A stretch of 21,640 nt of DNA from an uncultured Oscillospiraceae bacterium (GTDB taxonomy: Bacteria; Bacillota; Clostridia; Oscillospirales; Acutalibacteraceae): the NCBI GenBank assembly GCA_900549945.1, contig URQJ01000013.1, forward strand, positions 1 through 21,640, read 5' to 3'. Of this stretch, positions 227 through 21,640 are shown piece by piece; the first letter of the stretch is position 1, and every line of letters starts with the position of its first letter. A model generated the notes under the pieces. The model was not told the origin of the DNA, made no database searches, and worked only from the letters and a program-made list of their open reading frames with translations. A program made the translations under genes and the position numbers.

Positions 227-2419
227 TCACACGGCTGCCGGGAGTGCCTGCGGCTGTATGACTTCCGTATTTTCCATTAAGTCGGCCAACAACACATCTG
301 CCAGCAGACGGCCAGCCAGATGCCCGGTGTGAATAATCACACGGTCTTTCTGCATCTGGATAAATTCCTCCTTCCGCAGCTCACGGCTCCGTTCGGCCAG
401 CTTCAGGTCGCGGCCGGTAAGACGGGCTGCTATGACCTTCTGCCACTTCAGCAGGAATTCCGTTGCCTGTTCGATGTCCTCATATTGGCGGTCAAACAGG
501 GTGCGTTTCTGCCTCACAGTACCATCCGGCTCAATTTCAAGCGTGTAATAGGGGTCTTCCGGTTCATCCGTCCGACGAAGGAACATGATGAAGCTCTCCC
601 GGCGCTCGATGCGCTCATAATACCGCTCACCACTTCCGTCATTCCCGACGCAATGGTGGAGCATACGCCCCTCTTTGATGATGGCAAAGATGTTTTGGGG
701 CGCAAGCACCGTGTAGTCGCCATCGCTGTAGGCATATTTTTTCTGCAGCTCCATGCAGATGTCGTTGACATGGGGATATTTCGCCGCCATTTTCGATGCC
801 TGCTCCTCCAGACTCCCAGCTTCACTCTGAAGGACCAGTTCATCGTGCCGCTGGCGCAGTTTGCGCACACGGTAGACGATTTCATCACTGGTGTCATAGT
901 GCAGCCGTTCTGCCATAGCAAGGTAGTCCTGCCAGGTGGTCAGCGCCTGCTGGCAGCTGCCATCAAAATACTCTTTTTGCCGTTCCAGATAATTTCTGAT
1001 CTGTACCAGGCTCATGCGGTCTGCGATAAAGACCAGGTCCCTGGGACTGATCCGTTCTTTTTTGCTCCAACACAGCATTTCATCCGTGATACACTGTCCG
1101 GTCCGCTTCTCAAGCTGCAACCAGGCCAAAGTCTCTGCGTCTCCGTCCAACTGGCGCAGGCGGCGGAATTTGGGCGTATCCAGACCAAGAGCTCGAATCA
1201 ACCCTGGCTCGTTCGGATGCAGAACCAATTTCCGCACACGATCACAGGAGTTGAAGCACTCGTCGGTCAGCCGCGGCAGTCCAGCCTTCCAGATCTGCTC
1301 CATCTGGGGAAGTTTTTCCCATACCGCCAAGTATTTTTCAGGATCAGTGATTGGATGGCTTCTTATCCACTCAACCAAGCCGGTCTGGCGAAGTTCTTTT
1401 TTCCCCAGGCTAGGCAAAGTCTTTCCATACACCCGACCAGACTGATTCCAGCTATAGTTGTAATAGCAGGGGCTTCCCTCGATCCAGCGCACTTCTCTTT
1501 GGCAGTACATTCCCCAGAAATAGGAACGGATCTCTCCGCTGCGGTCGTAAATCGAACGCCGGAACTCATGCCAATAAGGTTCGCTATGAGGAAGAATGTG
1601 TTTCCGGTAGGTCCTGTTCGCCCAGAATTCTCGGATGACAAACCCATCCTTACACCGCTGGATGAGGTAAGCATAATGCCTCTGCGTCTGAAAATAGCCA
1701 GTGCGGCCCAGCGCCTTGAAAACAACGGGATGCCGACAGCAGATGCAACGCCCCTCTTTGTTGTGGTAGGGATGCCCAGAAATGGGCACCTCCTTCCCGC
1801 AGAAGGTGCAGTAGCCGATCTTGGCGCCGCCGCGCTTGTACTGGTAAAATATAAAATTTTCTCGCACGGCCACCTTGTCAGCCCAACGGCCCCAGTCTTT
1901 CGGCAATTTCGGCACTTGAGCAAGATCTTTGTCCCACGGGTCGGTGATCCGCTTATGACGCCGCTCCAGCTGTTCTTCCCTCACTTTTCTTTGAAAATCG
2001 AGGATGCCGGAGTATCCGCCCCGTTCGCTGGAAAAATACCGTTGCACCATATCCGAGTCTTCTGTGCCAACCCAGCAAACAGCATCATAATCCTGTCCAG
2101 ACCATTCCAGTCTGTCCAGCTTGGCGTCTCTCCACTTCTTATCCAAATAGTCGTAGGTAAGGAACTGGCGCTTCTTTTTATCAAGAAACACCTCATAGGC
2201 GGGATTGTCCCCATCCAATCGAAGATAATCCGGCAGATAAAGCGCCGCCTTCAAAATGCCGTTCTGAACCATGCAATTCATATAGCATTTATACTTGCGA
2301 CGAATGCGGGTATAACCGGAGTAGGTTCTAACTTTTTCCGGCTCGTCCTCAAGAGCCACCTTTTTCATTTCCGGCGATGCCGTCAGTTTCGACATCCCCA
2401 GAAGAATAGATTTCTTCAA
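227..2419 (-). CDS. pcfJ: PcfJ-like conjugative element protein
   Basis: This 730-aa protein matches the PcfJ-like family, named after a gene in the conjugation region of the enterococcal plasmid pCF10; its molecular function is not established. A cysteine cluster resembling a zinc ribbon lies at residues 204-228 (C204, C207, C225, C228). The family core is near residues 555-665, including GRMLHHCVG at 584-592 and a YTLEIEPDG stretch. The C-terminal third is rich in charged helices. No signal peptide or membrane span is visible, so it is probably cytoplasmic. Translation starts at TTG (2417-2419), which overlaps the TGA of the upstream gene as TTGA and has GGACGG about 10 nt upstream, suggesting translational coupling. 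PcfJ next to a PcfK-domain gene repeats the pCF10 pairing. An internal ATG at residue 9 is a possible alternative start. Confidence 0.85.
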   Translation of the reverse strand: MKKSILLGMSKLTASPEMKKVALEDEPEKVRTYSGYTRIRRKYKCYMNCMVQNGILKAALYLPDYLRLDGDNPAYEVFLDKKKRQFLTYDYLDKKWRDAKLDRLEWSGQDYDAVCWVGTEDSDMVQRYFSSERGGYSGILDFQRKVREEQLERRHKRITDPWDKDLAQVPKLPKDWGRWADKVAVRENFIFYQYKRGGAKIGYCTFCGKEVPISGHPYHNKEGRCICCRHPVVFKALGRTGYFQTQRHYAYLIQRCKDGFVIREFWANRTYRKHILPHSEPYWHEFRRSIYDRSGEIRSYFWGMYCQREVRWIEGSPCYYNYSWNQSGRVYGKTLPSLGKKELRQTGLVEWIRSHPITDPEKYLAVWEKLPQMEQIWKAGLPRLTDECFNSCDRVRKLVLHPNEPGLIRALGLDTPKFRRLRQLDGDAETLAWLQLEKRTGQCITDEMLCWSKKERISPRDLVFIADRMSLVQIRNYLERQKEYFDGSCQQALTTWQDYLAMAERLHYDTSDEIVYRVRKLRQRHDELVLQSEAGSLEEQASKMAAKYPHVNDICMELQKKYAYSDGDYTVLAPQNIFAIIKEGRMLHHCVGNDGSGERYYERIERRESFIMFLRRTDEPEDPYYTLEIEPDGTVRQKRTLFDRQYEDIEQATEFLLKWQKVIAARLTGRDLKLAERSRELRKEEFIQMQKDRVIIHTGHLAGRLLADVLLADLMENTEVIQPQALPAAV

Positions 2420-2967
2420 TTCATTTCACCGTCCTTTTTTTCAAGATCGGCTCCATACCACTCATTGGGTCGGAGTTTCTTCCCATCGATGGTCGCCACC
2501 ACGATCTTCTGGATGCAGCCGGTGACCGGATCTTCCTTGGCAAACGCAAGCACATCACCTTTCCGGCTGCCTTGTGCAACAGGGTCAACACCACGCACAA
2601 CAGCGTACCCACAACATGCCACAGCTTTGTCCTTCTTCACATGGCTGTTCCATTTCCGCTTCGGATGATCGGCCATAAACGCAAGGCCAAGGGTGAAAAG
2701 TTCTTCCTTGGTCAGCCGCCTAAGAACCGTCAATTCAGTGCAGGAAATCTTTGAGTCAAATTCGTCCTCATCAATGTCGCCTCCGGCGTTGACAATATAG
2801 TATTCCGAGTGATCCGCATCACCGTAATAACTCAGGCAGTCCAGTGGGTCTTCCGCACAATGGAAACCGTTTTTGCGGCAGTTGGCTTCTTCGGTCATGT
2901 TCAATCCCATCTGAAACTGATAGCCGATACAAACCATGCCAGGATGAAACCCTTTGTACGCGATCAT
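2416..2967 (-). CDS. DUF7666-like small element protein
   Basis: This 183-aa protein opens with YKGFHPGMVCIGYQF and then shows GFHCAEDPLDCLSYY. That layout (an early GFxY-type segment, then a CxxGFHxCxxPLDxLxYY segment) is common in small phage and integrative-element proteins grouped as DUF7666. I recognise it by pattern only, and no function is known. A mid-region basic patch is followed by GDVLAFAKED and a C-terminal GKKLRPNEWY, consistent with a small beta-rich fold. The ATG at 2967 has a strong AAGGAGG 6 nt upstream that lies across the stop of the preceding gene, and its own stop overlaps the pcfJ start. It is therefore an internal gene of the operon, made together with the PcfK-domain protein and PcfJ. 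Confidence 0.65.
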   Translation of the reverse strand: MIAYKGFHPGMVCIGYQFQMGLNMTEEANCRKNGFHCAEDPLDCLSYYGDADHSEYYIVNAGGDIDEDEFDSKISCTELTVLRRLTKEELFTLGLAFMADHPKRKWNSHVKKDKAVACCGYAVVRGVDPVAQGSRKGDVLAFAKEDPVTGCIQKIVVATIDGKKLRPNEWYGADLEKKDGEMN

Positions 2968-2978
2968 GCGCTACCTCC

Positions 2979-3941
2979 TTAACCAGCTTTTGCCACGCTG
3001 AAATCCAGCAAAGACATCTGGCCATCAGCAGAAGGTTTCTTTTCCGGCGCCGGCTTTGGTTCCGGCTTCTTCTTTTCGGCGGGTTTCTTTTCCGCTTTCT
3101 TTTTCTTGCCGGTATTCCCGGTGGTCTTGCCAATATAGGGCTTCGGCACAAACTTTTCCTCCTGCTCCTGGTCCTCCTTGGCATCCGGGTCGCGGAAATA
3201 ATCTTCCGCCCACTGGTAGCACAAATCGTCTGGAATATCGCAGCCATAGCCTTGGCCGCCCTGTCCGGGCTGGATACCATTGGCTTTGAGCTCGTCCTGA
3301 ACATAGTCCCACGCCTTCCGGCTGATGTACTGGAAGCAATGGATCATGGTTTTCTTCGGGTGCATGGTGAGCCGGGCAAAAGCCGGATCATCCAGGCAGA
3401 GCGTCTGGATATACTCCGAAACGCACTCCTTCATGTTCCGACGGGTCAACTTTTCTACATCCTTGCTGACACGCTGCATGGAGGCGGATACCACTTCATC
3501 ATCGCTCATGGCGGCAAGGTGATCCATCTGCTCCTGCAGGGCCCGCTTTTTCTCCGCCTGCTTGGCCTCCCATTCAGCCTTGCGTTTTGCTTCGGCAGTT
3601 TCATGCTCGGCACGACGCTTTTCTTCATCGGCATCCTTGGATGCGCCATTTCCGGCGGGCACATCTGTTTTGATGTCATCCACATCGTCACATCCGCCAT
3701 TCTCTTCCACGGGGTCATCCTCCGGCGCTTCCATCATCTCAGTAGAAACGGAGGATGCCGCATCAGAACCAGGCTGGGGTGCAGCTTGGTTCAGGGGCTG
3801 GACAGACGAACGGATGACCGGAGGCACCGGCAGTTCGTCAAAGCTTTCCTCTTCCTCAAAGGCATTTTCGCCCGTGAGTGCAGCAGCCGACGGTTTGCGT
3901 CCCTCCTGCATATTCAGCGACATCTCTGAAAAATATCCCAT
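2979..3941 (-). CDS. PcfK-domain protein (AcrIIA9-family-like) with long N-terminal extension
   Basis: The 320-aa protein starts at the ATG at 3941, which has AAAGGAG about 6 nt upstream; an in-frame ATG 17 codons earlier has no SD. Residues 1-100 are acidic and low-complexity. Residues 103-142 form an Ala/Lys/Glu coiled coil. Residues about 160-258 resemble the PcfK-like domain: a YIQTLCLDDPAFA segment, PKKTMIHCFQYIS, and DDLCYQWAEDYFRDPD. A Lys/Pro-rich tail (268-304) ends in QMSLLDF (308-314), which resembles a sliding-clamp-binding motif. PcfK-like proteins are the family of the Cas9 inhibitor AcrIIA9, but they are also ordinary conjugative-element genes, so anti-CRISPR activity here is unproven. 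Typical members are about 120-150 aa, so the extension is unusual. Its position two genes upstream of pcfJ supports the family call. Confidence 0.72.
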   Translation of the reverse strand: MGYFSEMSLNMQEGRKPSAAALTGENAFEEEESFDELPVPPVIRSSVQPLNQAAPQPGSDAASSVSTEMMEAPEDDPVEENGGCDDVDDIKTDVPAGNGASKDADEEKRRAEHETAEAKRKAEWEAKQAEKKRALQEQMDHLAAMSDDEVVSASMQRVSKDVEKLTRRNMKECVSEYIQTLCLDDPAFARLTMHPKKTMIHCFQYISRKAWDYVQDELKANGIQPGQGGQGYGCDIPDDLCYQWAEDYFRDPDAKEDQEQEEKFVPKPYIGKTTGNTGKKKKAEKKPAEKKKPEPKPAPEKKPSADGQMSLLDFSVAKAG

Positions 3942-3963
3942 AGTAATCTCCTTTCTGTAAACG

Positions 3964-4000
3964 AAAAACGGCATGGACGGGCCAAAGCCCATTCCATGCC
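3964..4000 (-). terminator. Intrinsic terminator-like hairpin upstream of the PcfK-domain gene
   Basis: On the minus strand an 8-bp stem, GGCATGGA with TCCATGCC, is extended after a small internal loop by GGGC/GCCC around a TTTG loop, and GTTTTTC follows. It lies in the 72-nt gap after the 87-aa gene. No obvious promoter is visible between it and the next gene, so it may only attenuate transcription within the operon. Confidence 0.6.
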
Positions 4001-4013
4001 ATCGTTACCTGTA

Positions 4014-4277
4014 TCACAGCACATAGAGCAAAGTGCTGAAGCTGTCAAAGCAGTAGCAGACCACATTGGGGTACTGCTCCGCCCATTCTTTGATTTGTTC
4101 CTGTACTGCCTGCGCCACCAGCTGTGCCGAAATATTCCAGGGCGGCGGAACTGTCACCGTGAAATATCCCTGTTCTATGTTGGGGCGAACATCCGCATTC
4201 AGCTGAACGCATTGCTCCAAAAGCGCCTCCAACTGTCCCTTCTTCGTTCCTTTTACAACAACCATCGATCTGCTCAT
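4014..4277 (-). CDS. Orphan 87-aa protein coupled to the primase-like gene
   Basis: This gene begins at the ATG at 4277, inside an ATGA overlap with the stop of the primase-like gene, the usual sign of translational coupling. An earlier in-frame start would overlap the primase gene deeply and is less likely. The protein begins MSRSMVVVKGTKKGQLEALLEQ and has a VTVPPPWNISAQ segment followed by an amphipathic helix, ending in CYCFDSFSTLLYVL. I see no catalytic motif, zinc site, signal peptide or clear membrane span, and I do not recognise the family. It may be a small partner of the primase-like protein, an idea that rests only on the overlap. Confidence 0.6.
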   Translation of the reverse strand: MSRSMVVVKGTKKGQLEALLEQCVQLNADVRPNIEQGYFTVTVPPPWNISAQLVAQAVQEQIKEWAEQYPNVVCYCFDSFSTLLYVL

Positions 4278-6052
4278 GCTCCTCCCGAAACCTTCTTTTT
4301 GGCGAGCATCGGAGAAAATTTCACCTGCTGAAACTGTGTATCTCCGTTCACATAGTAGTAAATTCGTTTCATGGGATACTCCAGTTCCACAACATCGGAA
4401 AGCGACATTGGCCGTCCGTTGCAACCCTCCGGTAATTCCACGCTGAGTTCTGAAAACAGGCGCTGCAATATCTCGGTATCGCTTTGGCCTGTAGGACAAT
4501 AGATTTCTCCCGTCCAGACCATGCGATATTGAGCCGCAGGCGGCTGCTCATAGCCGGCCTTTTTTACCGCTTCCATACCCTTGAACGCAAACGGAATCGC
4601 TTTCCGCTCGTCCAGTTCCAGCTGGTAGAGCACAAATCGCTGACTCCTGCGCTGGGGTTCCAGAAGGACGCCAAGCGCCTCCCGGCCATGGCGCAGAAAT
4701 GTTTCATGCTCTTCCCGGGTCAGGCCCAGATATTCGGTCAAACCGATGTTACTCTCCGCCCGGTGCTGCCATTGCTCGGTACAGTCCTCAATATGCGCCA
4801 ACTCACACCAGCCATTGAGGTACTGTTCTTTGAATGTCTTTCTTTCCAACTCCTTTCTTCGCTGATTTTCCCGGCGCAAGGCAAGCTGCCAATCATCAAA
4901 TCCCTTATAGTTGGGGTTCCAGGTCAGCCGCCTGCAATTCATTCCGTACTTTCGGGCTGTCAGATAGATTTTTGATGCTCCCGCCATGGTCATTTGGTTA
5001 TTGTACTTGTCCATATCGTGGGCTTCGATGATCTCCTCTGTACCGCTCTGCGCCAGAAGGGCAAATAATGGGTCCAGCGGACTTGTGTTATTGGCTCCGG
5101 CAATCGCAGCAAAGGTGCGTCCAGTCAAACAGTGGGATATGTCGGCTTTCAGCAACCCCTCAATGACATACACCACACGGGCAGACGGATCACCAACCAG
5201 GTGTACCGGGCTTCCCGATGAAGCGCCGTCTCTCTTGGAAGAAGAAGAGAACCAGATGTATTTGGCGCCAGCTTTTTCCGGCGGGTCATCTTTGTCCTTC
5301 AGTGGCACATCCAGCATGATTTGAAACCCCTGTAATCTGCCGTCAAAACCAACGGCTGGAATCAAGATTCCAGATGTTTTTTTATAAAAGGCCATGGTCC
5401 AGTAGCCGCAGTCATCGCGGTAGAACCCCGGGACACCTTCCACCTTACAGCCCATCTGTATCAGACGCGCTGTAATAGATCGGCACAAAAAGGGCGGCGG
5501 GGTGCTCTTAAAGCCCAGCGATTCGATTTGTTCATCAGATAACCCACGCTTTGGTGACCGAAGATGCTCCCTATGAGCCGGTCGCAGTGTAAGCTGGACC
5601 AACAGCAGGGATAGCGTCTGGTGGATCTCCGCAGGACTTGCTTTCTCTGACTGCGGCACAGTTTTTCGCTCGGAAGTAGAATGACGGCCGGCGTCAGCCC
5701 GGGCCCCCGAAAACGAGGACCCGGTGCTGACCGCCAGCTTAGGAGCTTCATTCCCGGAGCGTATATGTTCTTCATGGCAGTTGTCGCACAAAGCTTCTGC
5801 TATTTCCCAATAAGCGTCCGAGGTCGTCGTATTGTTGAGCCGTGCATACAGCCCAAGCATTCCGCCATGCTCGCCGCAGTAATTGCAGCGCCACACATTT
5901 TTGACGAAATTGACATTCATTTTTCCCCGGCGATCACCGCAGAACGGGCAATCCACATAGACACTATTTGACTGCTGGCGCCTGACACGCAGGCGCAACA
6001 GTTCCACGACATCCATGATATTGAACGGAAATTCATCCGGGTATGAGCCCAT
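4274..6052 (-). CDS. CHC2 zinc-finger/Toprim primase-like replication protein
   Basis: This 592-aa protein has a DnaG-like zinc finger near the N-terminus (C35, C38, C56, C59, within CPFC and CNYC), which would bind template DNA. A Toprim-like region lies in the middle: an acidic residue in VIEGLL (E298), a DxD at 346-348 and a GFDDWQ element near 384-389. That combination marks mobile-element primases that make RNA primers on single-stranded DNA, useful for replication or for second-strand synthesis after transfer. The C-terminal 170 residues are charged and unassigned. No DnaB-type helicase Walker motif is present, so it would need a separate helicase. The ATG at 6052 has GGAGG 8 nt upstream. 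The fourth zinc ligand is Cys rather than the classic CHC2 His pattern, so I call it primase-like. Confidence 0.8.
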   Translation of the reverse strand: MGSYPDEFPFNIMDVVELLRLRVRRQQSNSVYVDCPFCGDRRGKMNVNFVKNVWRCNYCGEHGGMLGLYARLNNTTTSDAYWEIAEALCDNCHEEHIRSGNEAPKLAVSTGSSFSGARADAGRHSTSERKTVPQSEKASPAEIHQTLSLLLVQLTLRPAHREHLRSPKRGLSDEQIESLGFKSTPPPFLCRSITARLIQMGCKVEGVPGFYRDDCGYWTMAFYKKTSGILIPAVGFDGRLQGFQIMLDVPLKDKDDPPEKAGAKYIWFSSSSKRDGASSGSPVHLVGDPSARVVYVIEGLLKADISHCLTGRTFAAIAGANNTSPLDPLFALLAQSGTEEIIEAHDMDKYNNQMTMAGASKIYLTARKYGMNCRRLTWNPNYKGFDDWQLALRRENQRRKELERKTFKEQYLNGWCELAHIEDCTEQWQHRAESNIGLTEYLGLTREEHETFLRHGREALGVLLEPQRRSQRFVLYQLELDERKAIPFAFKGMEAVKKAGYEQPPAAQYRMVWTGEIYCPTGQSDTEILQRLFSELSVELPEGCNGRPMSLSDVVELEYPMKRIYYYVNGDTQFQQVKFSPMLAKKKVSGGA

Positions 6053-6090
6053 CTGTCATTCCTCCCTTTGTACCCTCGCTGGGGTTCATA

Positions 6091-7110
6091 TCAGCCAGCC
6101 TTCTGGAGAGAATCGAGCACCAGCTGGGCGGCAGCGCGCACCAGATTGTTCTTGCTTTTGCCCGGAATGAGATAAAAGCGCAGATTGACCGGGCGTTTCT
6201 CTGCCACCTGCGCGATCGTCATGCCACGGCAGATACCATCATCCACAACGACCTGTCTGGCCTGTTCCAGCGTCATCACCTGCAGAAGCTCTTCCACAGG
6301 AGTATTCTGCGTGTAGGCGGGAGCCTCGTCCTGCGCAGGCGCATCGTTGCCCTTGGGTTCGATTCGCATCTCAGCCTTTTGGTTGGGCAGCGGCAGTTCA
6401 TCCGTCTGCTCCACGGCTCCCGGCTCAGCGGTAGCCATCACAGTATCCGTGGGCACCACTTTCTCCGCCTTAACAGGCTCCACCGGCAGCCGCTGTTCCA
6501 CCGACTCTACAGGCGGGGCCGTCACAGCCGTTTCCGGGGCCACAGGTGCCCTCTGCTGCGTTTTATGGCCGTTGGAAGGGAAATCACCCACGGCGGGCGC
6601 AGCGGGCTTCTGAGGGGTGCTGGCAGGCGTCTGCCGCGGTTCCGTACGCTCCGCCTGAATAGGTGCAGCCTCAGCCGCCTTTTTCTCAGTGGCATCGGCT
6701 TTCTTTTGCCCAACGGCGTCCTGTGCGTCGGCACTGATGAGCTGAATACCGAAGCCGGCATCCGTGAGCGCCTGGCTCAAAGCCTCATTCTGGGCGCCTC
6801 GGATAAAGTCCCGGTTGTCCTGAAGCTGCTGTTGGGCCACGCTCATGCTGAAAGGCTCAGCATCGCTGCGATCCAAGAACACACGGGCCTCGAAAATCGC
6901 CATCTGCTCGGTGATCCGCAGCGCCGTCACGCGCATACGCCCGTTGGGATGGGCCATGCGGAACCACAGCTTCTGATAGGGCAGATCCAGCCTCATACTG
7001 TCCTTGGTGCGGCGGAGGAACTTGAGCGGGTCAAAGTCCGGCACCTTGTTCAACTCTGCTACGGCGGGTACGGCCTCATACATGGTTTTGGCATTGCTGC
7101 TTTCGTTCAT
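6091..7110 (-). CDS. Unidentified element protein; possible single-strand annealing protein
   Basis: The 339-aa protein has two ordered ends joined by a long Pro/Ala/Glu-rich linker (about residues 130-265). The N-terminal part (25-122) includes YQKLWFRMAHPNGRMR, TEQMAIFEARVFL and a stretch ending RGAQNEALSQALTDAGFG. The order 'HPNGR, then AIFEA, then xAxxxALxxALxxAGFG' resembles phage and conjugative single-strand annealing or DNA-binding proteins, which often carry an AETxAIGRAL-type helix there. This likeness is weak and by eye. The C-terminal part (270-339) is a small helical domain with MTLEQARQVVV and NNLVRAAAQLVL. The gene lies beside a RecD2-like helicase and a YqaJ exonuclease, where an annealing partner would be expected. 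The ATG at 7110 has AAGGAG 8 nt upstream. Function is unproven. Confidence 0.55.
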   Translation of the reverse strand: MNESSNAKTMYEAVPAVAELNKVPDFDPLKFLRRTKDSMRLDLPYQKLWFRMAHPNGRMRVTALRITEQMAIFEARVFLDRSDAEPFSMSVAQQQLQDNRDFIRGAQNEALSQALTDAGFGIQLISADAQDAVGQKKADATEKKAAEAAPIQAERTEPRQTPASTPQKPAAPAVGDFPSNGHKTQQRAPVAPETAVTAPPVESVEQRLPVEPVKAEKVVPTDTVMATAEPGAVEQTDELPLPNQKAEMRIEPKGNDAPAQDEAPAYTQNTPVEELLQVMTLEQARQVVVDDGICRGMTIAQVAEKRPVNLRFYLIPGKSKNNLVRAAAQLVLDSLQKAG

Positions 7111-7130
7111 TTTGCAAACTCCTTCCTGTT

Positions 7131-7176
7131 AAATAAAATAGGAGACGCACTGTGCTTTTTCTGCACTTTACGTCCC
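7131..7176 (-). terminator. Weak terminator-like hairpin after the helicase gene
   Basis: In the 69-nt gap after the helicase gene the minus strand can pair GGGACG with CGTCTCC (one bulge), with a GTGC/GCAC inner stem around an A-rich loop, and TATTTTATTT follows. The stem is broken by mismatches, so it is more likely a partial terminator or processing site inside the operon than a full stop. Confidence 0.4.
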
Positions 7177-7179
7177 TTT

Positions 7180-9453
7180 TTAACCTGCGTGTTTCAATTC
7201 TTTTTTCGCTTCGTTCGGGAGCGGGATGCCGGCGCGTCTGGCATAGGCCTTAAAATACATGCCAATGCGTGCGCCCAGCAGCGTATTTCGCTTGCTGATC
7301 TCGTTGCGGTGAATCGCCATGAACAGCACCTGCTTCTGTCCAATCAGCACCACACGCTTTTTAGCACGGGTGATTCCGGTATAGAGCAGGTTGCGGTAGA
7401 GCATGATGCTATGCGCTTTCAAAAGCGGCATGATAACCGTTTCATACTCAGAACCCATAGACTTATGGATGGTGGTGGCATAGGCAAGGTCCAGGTTGAC
7501 CATATCCTCTACGCTGTATTCCAGTTCTCGACCAACTCCAAAATCGAGGCCCACACGCTTTCCGTTCTCACCGTCTTTGATATAACGGATAAAACCCAGA
7601 TCGCCATTGGATACCTTTGCGGTATTCTTGGTCTGCATAATACGGTCATTGACCCGGAAAACTTTGACGCCGATTTTGATCTCGTCTTCGGCGGAGCGAA
7701 ACGGGTTGACCACTTCACGGATTGCCTCATTGAGCTGTTCCGCCGATGCCGCACCTTCTGAGCGGAAGGGCGACAGAATCTGCACCCGGTCGATGCCGCT
7801 TTCCTCAATCTCTCTGCAATAACGGGAGATAATCCGCTCGGCGGCATCCGCCTGGTTATCGCTCGCCATGAACATGAAATCCGGCCCATAGTACAGCTTG
7901 GTATTGCCCTCGTTGATAAACTTGGCATTGTAGGCTATCAGACTGTCTTTGGACTGGCGAAAAATCTGATCCAGCACAGTGACAGGCACCAACTTGCAGT
8001 CAATCAACTCACGGAACACATTTCCGGCTCCCACGCTGGGAAGCTGGTCCGGGTCGCCTACAAGCACGATTCGTGCCCCGTCCTTGATACGAGAGAAGAA
8101 TTTATCTGCCAACCACATATCCACCATGGAAAACTCGTCTACGATGATCAGGTCAGCCGACAACGGTTCCTGCTGTTTGGTTCGGTTGACATCGTCCTCT
8201 TCGCTGCCGAGACCCAAACCGCTGTGAAGTGTCCGGGCCATATCAAAGCCGGTGCTCTCTGCCATACGGCGGCTCGCTCTGCCCGTCGGTGCCATCAAGA
8301 CGATTTGGCCGTCAGGGTGCAGCCGGCGGTATACCTCCAAGATCGTTTTCAGAACCGTCGTTTTGCCGGTACCGGGAGAGCCTGTGATAATGGAAAGATT
8401 GTGGCGGTACGCCGCATAGACGGCAGACTCCTGTTTGGAGGACAACACCACGCCCATCTCACGCTTGACCCGTTCCAGTACCCGCTCGATCCGCTCCGGT
8501 TCCGACGGCTCCACCAACCGCATGGCAATGCGGCGGGCGGTCTCGTCCTCCTGTGCAAACACCCGGGGCAGATAGATGTTATCCTTGACTGCCACCACTT
8601 CTCCTTTGAGAATCATGTCCTGCAGCACATCTGCGACTTCCTTCGCCTGAAGGCGAAGTGCCGGCACAGGAATCTTGTTGTTGAGCAGCCGAAGTGCCTC
8701 TTTCTGCAGGGTTTCCCCGGGCAAGAACAGGTGCCCTTTGGAGCCTTTGCCATCTTCCAGCGCCCAGAACAGTGCTCCTTTGACCCGCATGGGGTCATGA
8801 AGGTCACCGCCGTTCTTCTGAACAATGGCATCTACGCGCAAAAAGCCGAATCCGGATATCTGGCACAGTTCGAACGGACTCTTTTTCAAGATGTCCACAC
8901 TGGCTGGCCCGAAATACTGATAGATCTTGAGCGCCGTTTTCGGCGTGATCTTGAACGGGGAGAGCAGAACCAAAAGATCCTGCAGCATCCGGCTCTCCGC
9001 ATAGGAGGTCTTAATCTCCTCCAGTTTGCTTTCCGTGATACCCTTGATTTCCAAAAGCCGTTCCGGCCGCTTCTGCAGAATGTCCAGCGTGTCCTCTCCA
9101 AATCGGGATACGATCAGCGTAGCGGTCGCAGGTCCGATGCCTTTGATAAGGCCCGATGCCAGATACCCCTCCACACCGCTTTTGGTCCGAGGGACGATCT
9201 GGCGCCACTGCTCCACCTGAAACTGCATACCATACTTGCCCTGCTTCCATTCGCCGTCCAGTTCCAGATCCACCGCATCCGTGCGGGGCAGTTCATAGCC
9301 GGTCGCCACGAAGCGGATCAGATGGTCTCTGTACCGGCGGGTAGAACGGGCCTCCAGCGGCACCTCTTTGTCAGCAGTCTTCACACTGATAATGCAGAAC
9401 CGATTTGCCGGGTTGTGATAAATCGTCCCGTCATAAGTTCCTTTATGGATCAC
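7180..9453 (-). CDS. RecD2-like SF1B DNA helicase
   Basis: This 757-aa protein has the RecD2 architecture. A small N-terminal domain is followed by helix-hairpin-helix elements (near 102-116, 134-147 and 196-210), then a superfamily 1B motor: Walker A GSPGTGKTT at 358-366, Walker B IIVDEFSM at 436-443 with D439 and E440, motif III GDPDQLPS near 466-473, and the final helicase motifs TTIHKSMGSE near 660 and YTGITRAKKR near 691. Such enzymes unwind DNA 5' to 3' using ATP. RecD2 acts without RecBC, and here it probably serves the element's recombination or replication. The start is GTG at 9453, with AAAGGAGGG 9 nt upstream inside the gap after the exonuclease gene. The family is clear; it is probably an element-encoded copy, because it is locked into this operon. 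Confidence 0.88.
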   Translation of the reverse strand: MIHKGTYDGTIYHNPANRFCIISVKTADKEVPLEARSTRRYRDHLIRFVATGYELPRTDAVDLELDGEWKQGKYGMQFQVEQWRQIVPRTKSGVEGYLASGLIKGIGPATATLIVSRFGEDTLDILQKRPERLLEIKGITESKLEEIKTSYAESRMLQDLLVLLSPFKITPKTALKIYQYFGPASVDILKKSPFELCQISGFGFLRVDAIVQKNGGDLHDPMRVKGALFWALEDGKGSKGHLFLPGETLQKEALRLLNNKIPVPALRLQAKEVADVLQDMILKGEVVAVKDNIYLPRVFAQEDETARRIAMRLVEPSEPERIERVLERVKREMGVVLSSKQESAVYAAYRHNLSIITGSPGTGKTTVLKTILEVYRRLHPDGQIVLMAPTGRASRRMAESTGFDMARTLHSGLGLGSEEDDVNRTKQQEPLSADLIIVDEFSMVDMWLADKFFSRIKDGARIVLVGDPDQLPSVGAGNVFRELIDCKLVPVTVLDQIFRQSKDSLIAYNAKFINEGNTKLYYGPDFMFMASDNQADAAERIISRYCREIEESGIDRVQILSPFRSEGAASAEQLNEAIREVVNPFRSAEDEIKIGVKVFRVNDRIMQTKNTAKVSNGDLGFIRYIKDGENGKRVGLDFGVGRELEYSVEDMVNLDLAYATTIHKSMGSEYETVIMPLLKAHSIMLYRNLLYTGITRAKKRVVLIGQKQVLFMAIHRNEISKRNTLLGARIGMYFKAYARRAGIPLPNEAKKELKHAG

Positions 9454-9469: not shown

Positions 9470-10534
9470 TTAAGCCGCCTTGGTATCAGCTTTCACACTG
9501 AACCGGCGAAACTCCGAGATCGTGACATACTGCTCATAGATATCAGGATGGTCCAGTTTCAACCGGTCCAGATTGTCTTTGTCGATGCTAGGCTTCCGCA
9601 CCGGATTGTAGGTGACCGTATAATTTACGCCGTCCTGCTGGCAAATGGCTTTGCAGCTCTTGCCCATTTCGGCAATCAATGCTCCTTTCAGCCGTTGCAT
9701 ATCCGCATCGATTTCCTTGCTGTTCTTTTCAGCATGTTTCTTTTCTTCTTGGAGCTGGAGATACCGCATCAGCTTGGCAGTCAGAGAATAATCAAAGGTC
9801 ACCACAGGGGCGTCCTTATCCGCAGGACCCGTATGCCGGCGCACGCTTTCAATTACAAGATTGCCCTCCTCGGTATAGGGCGGCGGTGTTTTGGCAAGGA
9901 CATAGTTCTCCCAGAAATGTTGTTCCAAGAAAATCATCTCATCCTCATAAGCCTCGTCGCGGCGAATCTCACGAATGATGGTTTCTTCCTCGTTGTTGCC
10001 GTACAGACAGCAGAAGAAGCAGCGATCCACATTCATAACGGCCATGTAATGGCGCCCCTGGGTTTCGTAGTAGACCGGAACAGTTTCTTCCCCGTTCAGC
10101 CACCAGTGATCCTTGGCATTGTAGTTCGTGGTTTTGATTTCCAGAATTGCGGTCGTACCATCCGGAAGTTCCACAAAGTAGTCCACATCCGCCAGCATCC
10201 AGGGATACTTGGGGTGCTGGAACATCTTCTTGACCTGATATATCTTGTAGCCGGTCCGATGCTGGAAAATTTTCGCCACTAGCGGCTCCAGCAGATGCCC
10301 CATTTCCAGAGCAACCCAGTTTTCTTCGTTGTCCTCAACCGCTGCAATATTCAGCTTGTCGTAGTACAGGTCACGGGCCGTCCGCCAGGGTGATATACCC
10401 AGCAGCGCAGCCACATCACTGCCACCAATTCCTTTTCGCCGATAAGCGAGCCATTCCTTTTCGGATAAGCCTGCGGTCTCGACCAGTACCTGCGGTTGAT
10501 GCGTTTCCTTCAATGCCGCACAGCTATCCGGCAT
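9470..10534 (-). CDS. YqaJ-type viral recombinase exonuclease
   Basis: The 354-aa protein matches the YqaJ/lambda-Exo family, which resects double-stranded DNA ends 5' to 3' to leave single strands for annealing. Visible family signs are GIGGSD at 35-40, an early acidic E83, and the PD-(D/E)xK nuclease core LADVD (D116, D118) followed by ILEIKTT (E132, K134), with Q159 downstream. The C-terminal part has a coiled-coil-like KKHAEKNSKEID stretch. The start chosen is the ATG at 10534, because GAGGAGGGGG lies just upstream and the preceding gene stops 2 nt before it. The frame stays open 33 codons further upstream, but that segment overlaps the 53-aa gene and lacks an SD. The exonuclease, helicase and possible annealing protein look like one recombination module. 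Confidence 0.87.
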   Translation of the reverse strand: MPDSCAALKETHQPQVLVETAGLSEKEWLAYRRKGIGGSDVAALLGISPWRTARDLYYDKLNIAAVEDNEENWVALEMGHLLEPLVAKIFQHRTGYKIYQVKKMFQHPKYPWMLADVDYFVELPDGTTAILEIKTTNYNAKDHWWLNGEETVPVYYETQGRHYMAVMNVDRCFFCCLYGNNEEETIIREIRRDEAYEDEMIFLEQHFWENYVLAKTPPPYTEEGNLVIESVRRHTGPADKDAPVVTFDYSLTAKLMRYLQLQEEKKHAEKNSKEIDADMQRLKGALIAEMGKSCKAICQQDGVNYTVTYNPVRKPSIDKDNLDRLKLDHPDIYEQYVTISEFRRFSVKADTKAA

Positions 10535-10536
10535 AC

Positions 10537-10698
10537 TCAGCACCCCCTCCTCGTCGGGCGAGGAACGACATGCGCCTTCATTACCGGGCACCGCCTCTTG
10601 ATGGGCTGCTGCAGTTTCTTGAACTGCCTCCAACTCTCGTTCAATTTTTTCTCTTTCACCATGATGTCATGGTTCAGCATTTTCGTGTTCATTTGCAT
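10537..10698 (-). CDS. Small basic 53-aa protein leading the operon
   Basis: This short frame begins MQMNTKMLNHDIMVKEKKLNES and ends RPTRRGC. It is strongly basic, has a helical middle (KLNESWRQFKKLQQPIKRR) and shows no membrane segment or known domain. The start at 10698 has AAAGGCAGG directly upstream; an ATG two codons later is possible. Its stop lies 2 nt before the exonuclease start, and the exonuclease SD is inside its last codons, so translating it would feed the exonuclease. It is the first gene after the structured leader, so it may be a leader-type or DNA-binding protein. It is also possible that only its translation matters for coupling. Confidence 0.5.
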   Translation of the reverse strand: MQMNTKMLNHDIMVKEKKLNESWRQFKKLQQPIKRRCPVMKAHVVPRPTRRGC

Positions 10699-10751
10699 AC
10701 CTGCCTTTCTGATTTTTGATATATCCTCAAAGCCGTTTCCGGCATTTGGGC

Positions 10752-10825
10752 AAAAAAATAAGCGAGGTTGACTGCGGCATACGCCTGCTGTCCACAGCAA
10801 CCTGTGAACCAAAGTCATCCTCGCC
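10752..10825 (-). terminator. Second terminator-like structure in the leader
   Basis: The minus strand pairs GCGAGG (10,824-10,819) with CCUCGC (10,767-10,762). After an A-A mismatch, UGACU (10,817-10,813) pairs with AGUCA (10,773-10,769). Two small hairpins, UGCUG/CAGCA and GGC-GUAU-GCC, fill the interior. UUAUUUUUUU follows directly. It lies only about 55 nt upstream of the first gene, so transcription must pass it for the operon to be expressed. Confidence 0.62.
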
Positions 10826-10828
10826 AAT

Positions 10829-10846
10829 AGGGAATGGGCATTCCCT
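10829..10846. repeat. Perfect 8-bp inverted repeat between the two leader terminators
   Basis: AGGGAATG and CATTCCCT are perfect complements around a 2-nt centre. As RNA it is a tight hairpin; as DNA it is a symmetrical 18-bp site that could be an operator. Its place between two terminator-like structures suggests a spacer hairpin or a protein-binding site. Neither role is shown. Confidence 0.5.
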
Positions 10847-10847
10847 G

Positions 10848-10903
10848 AAAATAGAAAAAGCCAGTAATATACCGACCCATACGGGCGCAGTAATACTACT
10901 GGC
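10848..10903 (-). terminator. First terminator-like hairpin in the leader
   Basis: On the minus strand, GCCAGUAGUAU pairs with the AUA-UUACUGGC side (11 pairs including one G-U). After a bulged U there are four more pairs, then CCC/GGG around a GUAU loop. UUUUUCUAUUUU follows at once. This is a strong intrinsic-terminator pattern, about 100 nt downstream of the promoter and 160 nt before the first gene. Confidence 0.68.
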
Positions 10904-11008
10904 ACAAGTACAATCTTAACTGCGTGTGCAATGCGGGCTTTTGGCCTGCGGTACAGAACTTATGTCTGTATCCCATACGGGAAGCGCACAAAAATCAATT
11001 ACAAAGCA

Positions 11009-11037
11009 AGTTTAGCACAATATATAGTATTAGTCAA
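11009..11037 (-). promoter_or_regulatory. Promoter of the leftward element operon
   Basis: Read on the minus strand, TTGACT (11,037-11,032) and TAAACT (11,014-11,009) are separated by 17 nt. TG precedes the -10 box by one base (TGC-TAAACT), an extended -10. The likely start of transcription is near 11,002. No other convincing leftward promoter is seen before 10,698, so this probably drives the whole replication and recombination operon. Confidence 0.65.
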
Positions 11038-11454
11038 GTATTGTTGTCTACATATAGCGTCTTAATTGTTTCTTCGTATCTGTCTGAGAATAAAAAATAG
11101 GAATCTGCAGAATTCAGCTCGTTCCGTCCCTATATATAAAGCGTATAGACATGGCGTGTGGTTCCACTGCCTGTCTGTTCGCCTTTTGTACCTTGACAAC
11201 CCCCATAACCTTTTCCATTGGAGTTATACAGGGGTCGTGGATAGTGTGTGATGACTGCATGGAGCACGCCCACGACTGAAATGCTGCACAGCAGTTGCCT
11301 GAAAATACGCGGCGGAAAAACCCGGCGCAGGAAATGGCCTTTGGAAGAGACCTGATACTTCCCGATAAATTTGAATGACTTCATTGTTTTTGTTGAAAAC
11401 CTTTCCCTACAAACAGTAGAGGATATATGTAATTGCAAATAAAGGAGGGCAATT
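11038..11454. other. Regulatory stretch between the divergent operon and the excisionase gene
   Basis: These 417 bases hold no gene I can support. A minus-strand frame covering 11,130-11,549 is open but overlaps the excisionase gene, and its best internal ATG has only a weak SD. An inverted repeat at 11,201-11,234 (CCCCATAAC with GTTATACAGGGG) could be a hairpin or protein-binding site. The last 20 bases carry the excisionase SD. The stretch probably holds the promoter of xis-int and binding sites for Int or Xis, but I cannot name a convincing plus-strand promoter. Confidence 0.4.
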
Positions 11455-13090: not shown

Positions 13091-13150
13091 AGGCACTACA
13101 TATTGTGTTTTACTTGTCCAATGGCTTCATTGTAGGAAACAGCAGAACAT
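13091..13150. other. Candidate attachment site at the 3' end of lysS
   Basis: The integrase-proximal end of the element meets the lysS stop codon (13,110-13,112). The last eight lysS codons before the stop include CCT, ACA, CCA and TTG, whereas the preceding part of the gene mostly uses G/C-ending codons. That is expected if the element resupplies the 3' end of its target gene. The other junction, which should hold a direct repeat, lies outside the window, so the exact core cannot be fixed. Confidence 0.4.
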
Positions 13151-21568: not shown

Positions 21569-21640
21569 TGGCTCCCCCTGTTGGACTCGAACCAACGACC
21601 CTGCGGTTAACAGCCGCATGCTCTACCGACTGAGCTAAGG
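21569..21640 (-). tRNA. tRNA-Asn (GTT), missing 4 nt at the 5' end
   Basis: On the minus strand the cloverleaf is clear: D arm GCTC..GAGC, anticodon stem TGCGG/CCGCA with loop CTGTTAA (anticodon GTT, asparagine), T arm GTTGG-TTCGAGT-CCAAC and a 3' acceptor strand AGGGGGA, then G and an encoded CCA. The window ends at acceptor position 5, so the first four bases (expected TCCC) are cut off. It is a normal, probably functional tRNA; its 3' end is a common target for integrating elements. Confidence 0.96.

Follow-up and report, generated by a model that had tools for sequence, protein, structure and literature searches.

How the long operon of a mobile element can be expressed from behind two apparent transcription terminators is the question raised by the stretch of DNA analysed here (the window, all 21,640 nt of it, from an uncultured Oscillospiraceae bacterium). 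An earlier note on this DNA had described a promoter, a multibranch RNA domain, a terminator-like hairpin (T1), a perfect 8-bp hairpin and a branched second terminator (T2), all of which are present on the minus strand (Table 1), and had argued that an antitermination signal would be needed by the operon behind the terminators, an argument that we judge sound. With a predicted folding energy of -94.6 kcal/mol (z -4.77), the 256-nt leader was more stable than every one of 200 shuffles. Behind it lie the YqaJ recombinase gene and the remainder of the operon, in which the 339-aa protein encoded at 6091-7110 (minus strand) is without any Pfam family, and on the other side of the leader Pfam identified an integrase with a Tn916-type DNA-binding domain (PF00589, PF02920), adjoined by a gene which we take, from its sequence, to be lysS. 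A long, TTG-started form of YqaJ (from 10633) was dismissed, since many relatives are 354 aa long and fit the ATG at 10534, the preceding stretch being the small ORF of Table 1; a programmed frameshift from that small ORF into YqaJ was dropped for the same reason.

Table 1. Predicted features of the promoter, leader and operon, with positions counted in the window
Feature	Position	Strand	Description and basis
Promoter, leader and operon		-	Order: promoter, domain A, T1, 8-bp hairpin, T2, GNRA-type hairpin, 51-aa ORF, YqaJ
Upstream operator-like palindrome	11048..11057	-	CTATATGTAG; conserved form CTATATATAG
Promoter	11009..11037	-	TTGACT-17-TAAACT, TG before the -10; sequence
Spacer operator-like palindrome, within promoter	11016..11029	-	TACTATATATTGTG; conserved form CACAATATATTGTG
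Domain A, conserved 5' domain	10904..11004	-	GUAAUUGAUUUUUGUGCG ... UUGCACACG..GUUAAG.UUGUA, hairpins inside helix P2; R1, alignment
Terminator T1	10848..10903	-	Stem 10903-10860, U-tract 10859-10848 UUUUUCUAUUUU; z -6.10
Perfect 8-bp spacer hairpin between T1 and T2	10829..10846	-	Sequence; conserved only in part in alignment
Terminator T2	10751..10825	-	Branched stem 10825-10761, U-tract 10760-10751 UUAUUUUUUU; z -5.37
GNRA-type hairpin after T2, ahead of ribosome binding site	10725..10750	-	z -3.24, 1/200 shuffles as stable
Small ORF, 51 aa, Lys/Arg-rich, unannotated	10537..10692	-	Counterparts at other loci
YqaJ recombinase, 354 aa, ATG 10534	9470..10534	-	PF09588
Remaining operon in window	227..9453	-	RecD2, uncharacterized protein, CHC2/YodL protein, PcfK, DUF7666, PcfJ; Pfam

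Taken alone, the multibranch domain A is unexceptional in stability (z -1.26, with 22 of 200 shuffles as stable), and the case for it is mainly one of sequence conservation, not of stability. Together with T1 it makes up a covariance model, R1, which leaves the promoter and T2 outside and matches the window at 10851-11004 with 137.8 bits. Further downstream, the CCCAAANGCCGNAANGGCUUUGAGGAUA sequence of the GNRA-type hairpin is common among the aligned leaders and divergent in some rows.

The earlier note had called for a covariance model from homologous leaders and for compensatory base changes, and with R1 built, both A+T1 and T2 were found to covary beyond controls with slid partners. For A+T1, 84.5% of the cells were paired across 109 distinct rows, vs 34.0-46.2% with partners slid by one to three columns, and changes on both sides were seen at 37 of the 43 pairs (7/7 in the lower T1 stem), in an alignment which, being fitted to the model, leans toward structure. 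The 59-row MAFFT alignment of T2, which was not structure-fitted although the structure tested is its own consensus, gave 94.2% paired cells against 29.0-50.5% with slid partners, and both-side changes at 15/18 pairs. Before any fitting, RNAalifold on 56 sequences found both-side changes at 7/19 pairs, every one of them in the stem of T1. There is hardly any variation in the helices that close A, a point against the reading set out below, and since P2 is nearly invariant and some rows, such as those of L035 and L042, have a broken P1, there is little covariation support for these two helices. The 5' strand of A is also nearly invariant, including in leaders without T2, and this too counts against that reading. 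As judged from the alignments, both terminator stems covary and the leader is a conserved RNA family.

That the earlier note knew of no described riboswitch or T-box of this shape was in line with the searches of Rfam 15, which at gathering cut-offs returned nothing but a tRNA at the edge for the whole window, at E≤5 a single sub-threshold match for the leader (SNORA73, 11.4 bits, E 1.4), and at E≤0.1 no match for 18 divergent leader loci. Rfam includes a T-box model, and no T-box match was obtained for the window, the leader or the 18 divergent loci. The tRNA, which is cut off by the window edge (21572-21640, minus strand), was seen by Rfam and missed by ARAGORN. In the open-licence literature no paper describing the leader was found by title or start of abstract, and it may have been published elsewhere.

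The promoter is as much a part of the conserved arrangement as the RNA. Among leader matches from 100 chosen sources (115 matches in the model-fitted alignment) rather than all fetched loci, a promoter scoring at least 9/12 lies directly upstream in 110 of 114 distinct leaders, and the distance from the -10 to the model start is 4 nt in 100 of the 112 leaders scoring at least 8/12. The upstream palindrome CTATATATAG was found at 8/10 or better in 74 promoters of a dereplicated set of 100 (5.2 expected from shuffles), at -53/-54 from the model start in 71 of these 74, and the spacer palindrome CACAATATATTGTG at 10/14 or better in 86 of 100 (3.0 expected from shuffles), at -25 in 82 of the 86. 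The natural reading of the two palindromes is a shared DNA-binding regulator. The earlier note had suggested that the leader could be the switch by which the integrated element is silenced; as the promoter carries both palindromes, the operon may instead be locked mainly at initiation, by a repressor. Another operator-like sequence, CACTACATATTGTG, lies at 13094-13107 of the window between the integrase and its opposite-strand neighbour, near the likely end of the element.

In the same set of matches, at least one terminator-like site was called in 112 of the 113 sufficiently long leaders and at least two in 86, by a rule which misses T2 of L085 and T1 in several rows (e.g. L046, L048, L049), and which also over-calls, with extra sites in 21 leaders and a second site in the SSB-type leaders L115 and L121. 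The sole leader without a called terminator, L085, has T2 followed by CCUAUUUUUUU, overlooked by the rule. On the alignment, the leaders of operons opening with a single-stranded DNA-binding protein (SSB-type) have A and one terminator and the YqaJ-type leaders have T1 and T2, while in one lineage (L071, L076, L085 and L092) the T1 hairpin is kept with its U-tract lost or shortened, leaving effectively T2 alone. Further along, a scan of the window operon found 25 terminator-like sites on both strands, vs 11.8 in shuffles, of which 11 are on the operon strand; since the stems of these have only 5-7 pairs, long-distance read-through is not clearly demanded by this operon, a further point against the reading set out below.

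Between the leader and YqaJ lies a small basic ORF which recurs at other loci. An ATG ORF of 44-60 codons with a net charge of at least +8 precedes YqaJ in 56 of the 66 loci tested, against 1.5 expected from 2-mer shuffles, and is missing in the other ten. The 47 listed small proteins have 48-54 aa and often end in RRGC or RRGA. Third codon positions are the most variable in their alignment, and single-change codons are synonymous in 298/700, 84/169 and 312/490 cases in three groups; as the neutral synonymous share is about a quarter and these shares exceed it, the ORF appears to be translated and to be shaped by selection. The small protein fits no family of Pfam, PHROGs or NCBIfam, the copy in L024, a locus of an Anaerotruncus colihominis strain, giving one sub-threshold NCBIfam match of 12.5 bits, and a profile of it matches 45 database proteins, of which those named are hypothetical or uncharacterized. 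AlphaFold predicts a single helix over residues 3-28 at moderate confidence (pLDDT 73.8, pTM 0.28). We regard this protein of about 50 aa as a candidate RNA-binding partner of the leader; an alternative role, as an accessory to YqaJ in recombination, is possible because SSB directly follows the leader in SSB-type operons.

We then asked how closely the leader is tied to YqaJ. Among loci fetched by YqaJ similarity, blastn found a leader relative in 93 of 95 (80/80 from genomes, these being the 80 top-ranking among 114 confirmed YqaJ relatives, with several near-duplicates, and 13/15 from viral collections); it starts at most 700 nt upstream of YqaJ in 91 of the 95, and 14 have two or three leader copies. 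Within ten genomes, a leader match lies within about 1.5 kb of 9 of 18 YqaJ matches, so that the presence of YqaJ does not by itself bring the leader. R1 found two to four copies in all 11 of the genomes already known for a YqaJ leader, and matched 4/391 genomes of the class, 17/299 and 11/297 of two families and 3/398 of the phylum, in samples with stricter filters that include the seed genomes, many matched genomes showing a single copy. Up to six leaders were found per genome. In nine genomes (G001, G002, G003, G004, G009, G011, G515, G545, G838) one contig carries a convergent pair 45-106 kb apart. This picture is incomplete, because eleven others (G007, G008, G010, G089, G327, G414, G427, G434, G501, G673, G1181) have same-direction copies on one contig, which again counts against our main reading.

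The second copy of the convergent pairs examined heads an operon which opens with an SSB-like protein, followed by a protein with a hydrophobic stretch and, where enough sequence is in view, a DUF932 protein in third place (Pfam on the G003 genes). In a more distant branch (G089, G327, G434 and others) the leader heads SSB, an NAD-dependent ligase and uncharacterized proteins. A further copy in L027 (1723-1878), L043, L046, L051 and others heads a protein of about 400 aa, which in L027 is without a Pfam family, and leaders on opposite strands stand back to back in L072 (4302-4403, minus, and 4558-4675, plus) and L073 (2176-2278, minus, and 2432-2549, plus).

A TraG/VirD4-type coupling protein is encoded 16-19 kb upstream of the second leader copy, on the same strand, in six of seven genomes, and for this reason we take the leader-bearing pieces to be conjugative elements; no PF03432 relaxase was found within the intervals between leaders. 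Several leader-bearing sequences are filed as phage, viral or plasmid (L004, MT835653.1; L005, MT836821.1; L003, OY725878.1; and the IMG/VR loci L086-L098), and relatives of these pieces are found in chromosomes, near conjugation genes. The leader is an RNA of conjugative elements, present in several families of the Clostridia, without a match in Rfam.

The promoter, A and the terminator hairpins are found together as a conserved set, which several operons of a single element share. We propose that domain A is a processive antitermination element which gates each element operon it heads, and put the probability of this at slightly under one in two. The operator-bearing promoter would be the first lock; A, with which the transcript is predicted to begin, would carry RNA polymerase through one or two predicted intrinsic terminators downstream, where transcripts lacking an active A would be stopped; and, as the least certain step, the basic protein of about 50 aa or another factor may assist A. 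An action on RNA polymerase, and not by refolding, is suggested because one and the same A precedes T1, T1 and T2, or effectively T2 alone, and because no conserved pairing between A and a terminator strand was found. A classic attenuator or riboswitch was rejected on the same grounds, as truncation folds and duplex shuffles gave no conserved pairing of A that excludes a terminator: the consensus fold of A was unchanged without the 3' strand of T1, and pairing of the 5' strand of A with that of T2, with T2 cut short, had a mean z of -0.93 with only 3/66 in the 5% shuffle tail. Regulation by an antisense RNA was also rejected: an opposite-strand promoter-like site occurs in 41 of 67 sequences, but 35 of the 54 sites fall in alignment columns 0-49, no further downstream than the palindromic sense promoter, the rest being scattered, with eight in columns 110-129.

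A close rival to this proposal arises because an always-on A would make the adjacent terminators pointless. T1 and T2 might instead stop transcription by default, with read-through enabled by a protein, ligand or RNA binding to A, as in nut/N-, ANTAR- or riboswitch-like control. Such a gate would fit the terminator-like sites retained behind A in all but one of the leaders scored, the several leaders per genome, which would form a regulon for a single factor, and the conserved basic protein adjoining the leader. That same protein is missing from ten loci and has no room before SSB, however; no NusG-family gene lies in the leader-bounded intervals, with a single NusG-family match in 7/11 genomes, and for the pLS20 ORF assumed to be ConAn1 no relative was found among the loci fetched. 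With no conserved alternative pairing between A and a terminator either, we consider factor-dependent attenuation somewhat unlikely. Rather doubtful, in our view, is the fuller, bipartite scheme, in which an RNA module placed at the +1 of as many as six operons in a genome would arm RNA polymerase to run through tandem terminators, with an N-like, RNA-binding partner protein of about 50 aa, the upper lock being a common repressor bound to the operators.

The terminated transcript of about 150 nt might itself be what the leader is for, regulating the element in trans on the model of the P4 CI RNA, which is a short terminated RNA that acts in trans. In favour of this, A and T1 form a compact unit, fixed relative to the promoter, with a near-invariant 5' strand, yet the invariant 14-mer has no second site in the window when both strands are searched with three mismatches allowed, no site closer than two mismatches in the G003 stretch outside the two leaders, and the U-tract that would end the RNA is lost or shortened in one lineage; we hold this to be improbable. 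Less probable again is that a repressed promoter is the sole lock, with T1 and T2 as passive insulators against stray transcription and A not antiterminating. The two conserved palindromes at nearly fixed promoter positions agree with it, and T1 of Tn916 is described as an insulator (PMC11658703), but T1 and T2 would here block the operon's own promoter as well, and A appears to be conserved beyond the needs of two terminators.

Few antitermination systems have been described in Gram-positive bacteria, with LoaP, EAR, conAn and canT named in the papers cited below, and a covarying RNA without a match in Rfam, heading several operons of gut conjugative elements, is a candidate for a further one. 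The leader would offer a single module in which the silence of such an element, followed by the joint expression of long operons, can be assayed, and a marker for locating element operons, and the small proteins encoded between it and YqaJ make up a family to which nothing in Pfam, PHROGs or NCBIfam corresponds.

Compared with known systems, the leader has several partial counterparts. Lambda combines a boxB/boxA nut site with the arginine-rich N protein, of which the small basic protein of the leader loci would be a candidate counterpart. LoaP, which depends on a UNCG hairpin and on a paralogue of NusG (PMC12691694), resembles the leader in its dfn hairpin, terminators and occurrence in Bacillota, but was rejected here, as no PF02357 match falls within the leader-bounded intervals, the NusG-family genes lying outside them. 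The EAR element of Bacillales, as cited in PMC11658703 and PMC8955417, is likewise an RNA antiterminator of a long operon, and the leader had no match in Rfam. The conAn system of pLS20 consists of a protein and an RNA at the start of a long conjugative operon (PMC8955417); it shares with the leader the opening of a long conjugative-element operon by RNA plus protein, whereas in the window the protein comes after the RNA and the terminators, both of which are found again at several operons. R1, run on the first 50 kb of pLS20, gave one match of 9.5 bits, far from the operon start, and with filters off its best match at 1400-5000 scored 11.3 bits (E 0.033); a distant tie below the sensitivity of the model may exist. 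A tblastn search of the fetched loci, in which the window's element is partly in view, with the pLS20 ORF taken as ConAn1 by position alone (a hypothetical protein in the record) gave no match at E≤1.

Closer likenesses are found in canT and put. The canT RNA of Tn916 belongs to an ICE, acts in cis and processively, and passes T1-T3 as well as foreign terminators (PMC11658703), and both systems place a predicted structured RNA and terminators before DNA-processing genes, the window also having an integrase with a Tn916-type DNA-binding domain. By contrast, canT lies between orf8 and xis, away from its promoter, with an active fragment of 452 nt (PMC11658703); on L185 (the Tn916-type element of pCF10, used as a stand-in), R1 with filters off returned nothing at E≤10 in the stretch from the HTH gene to the excisionase, its best match on the element (12.1 bits) being elsewhere. 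In HK022, put RNAs lie behind both early promoters (PMC9378689), so that, as with the leader, a single mobile element has two operons in which the promoter is followed by a cis-acting RNA with stem-loops near the 5' end. By their descriptions the two are distinct, put belonging to a lambdoid phage and having two stem-loops in about 70 nt, whereas the leader has a multibranched A of about 100 nt at the predicted +1, one or two terminators and operator-like sites. In common with put, canT and EAR, it is a conserved structured RNA upstream of terminators that heads operons. An established member of none of these systems, the leader appears to follow the same plan as HK022 put and Tn916 canT, and would work like them if it does bring about antitermination.
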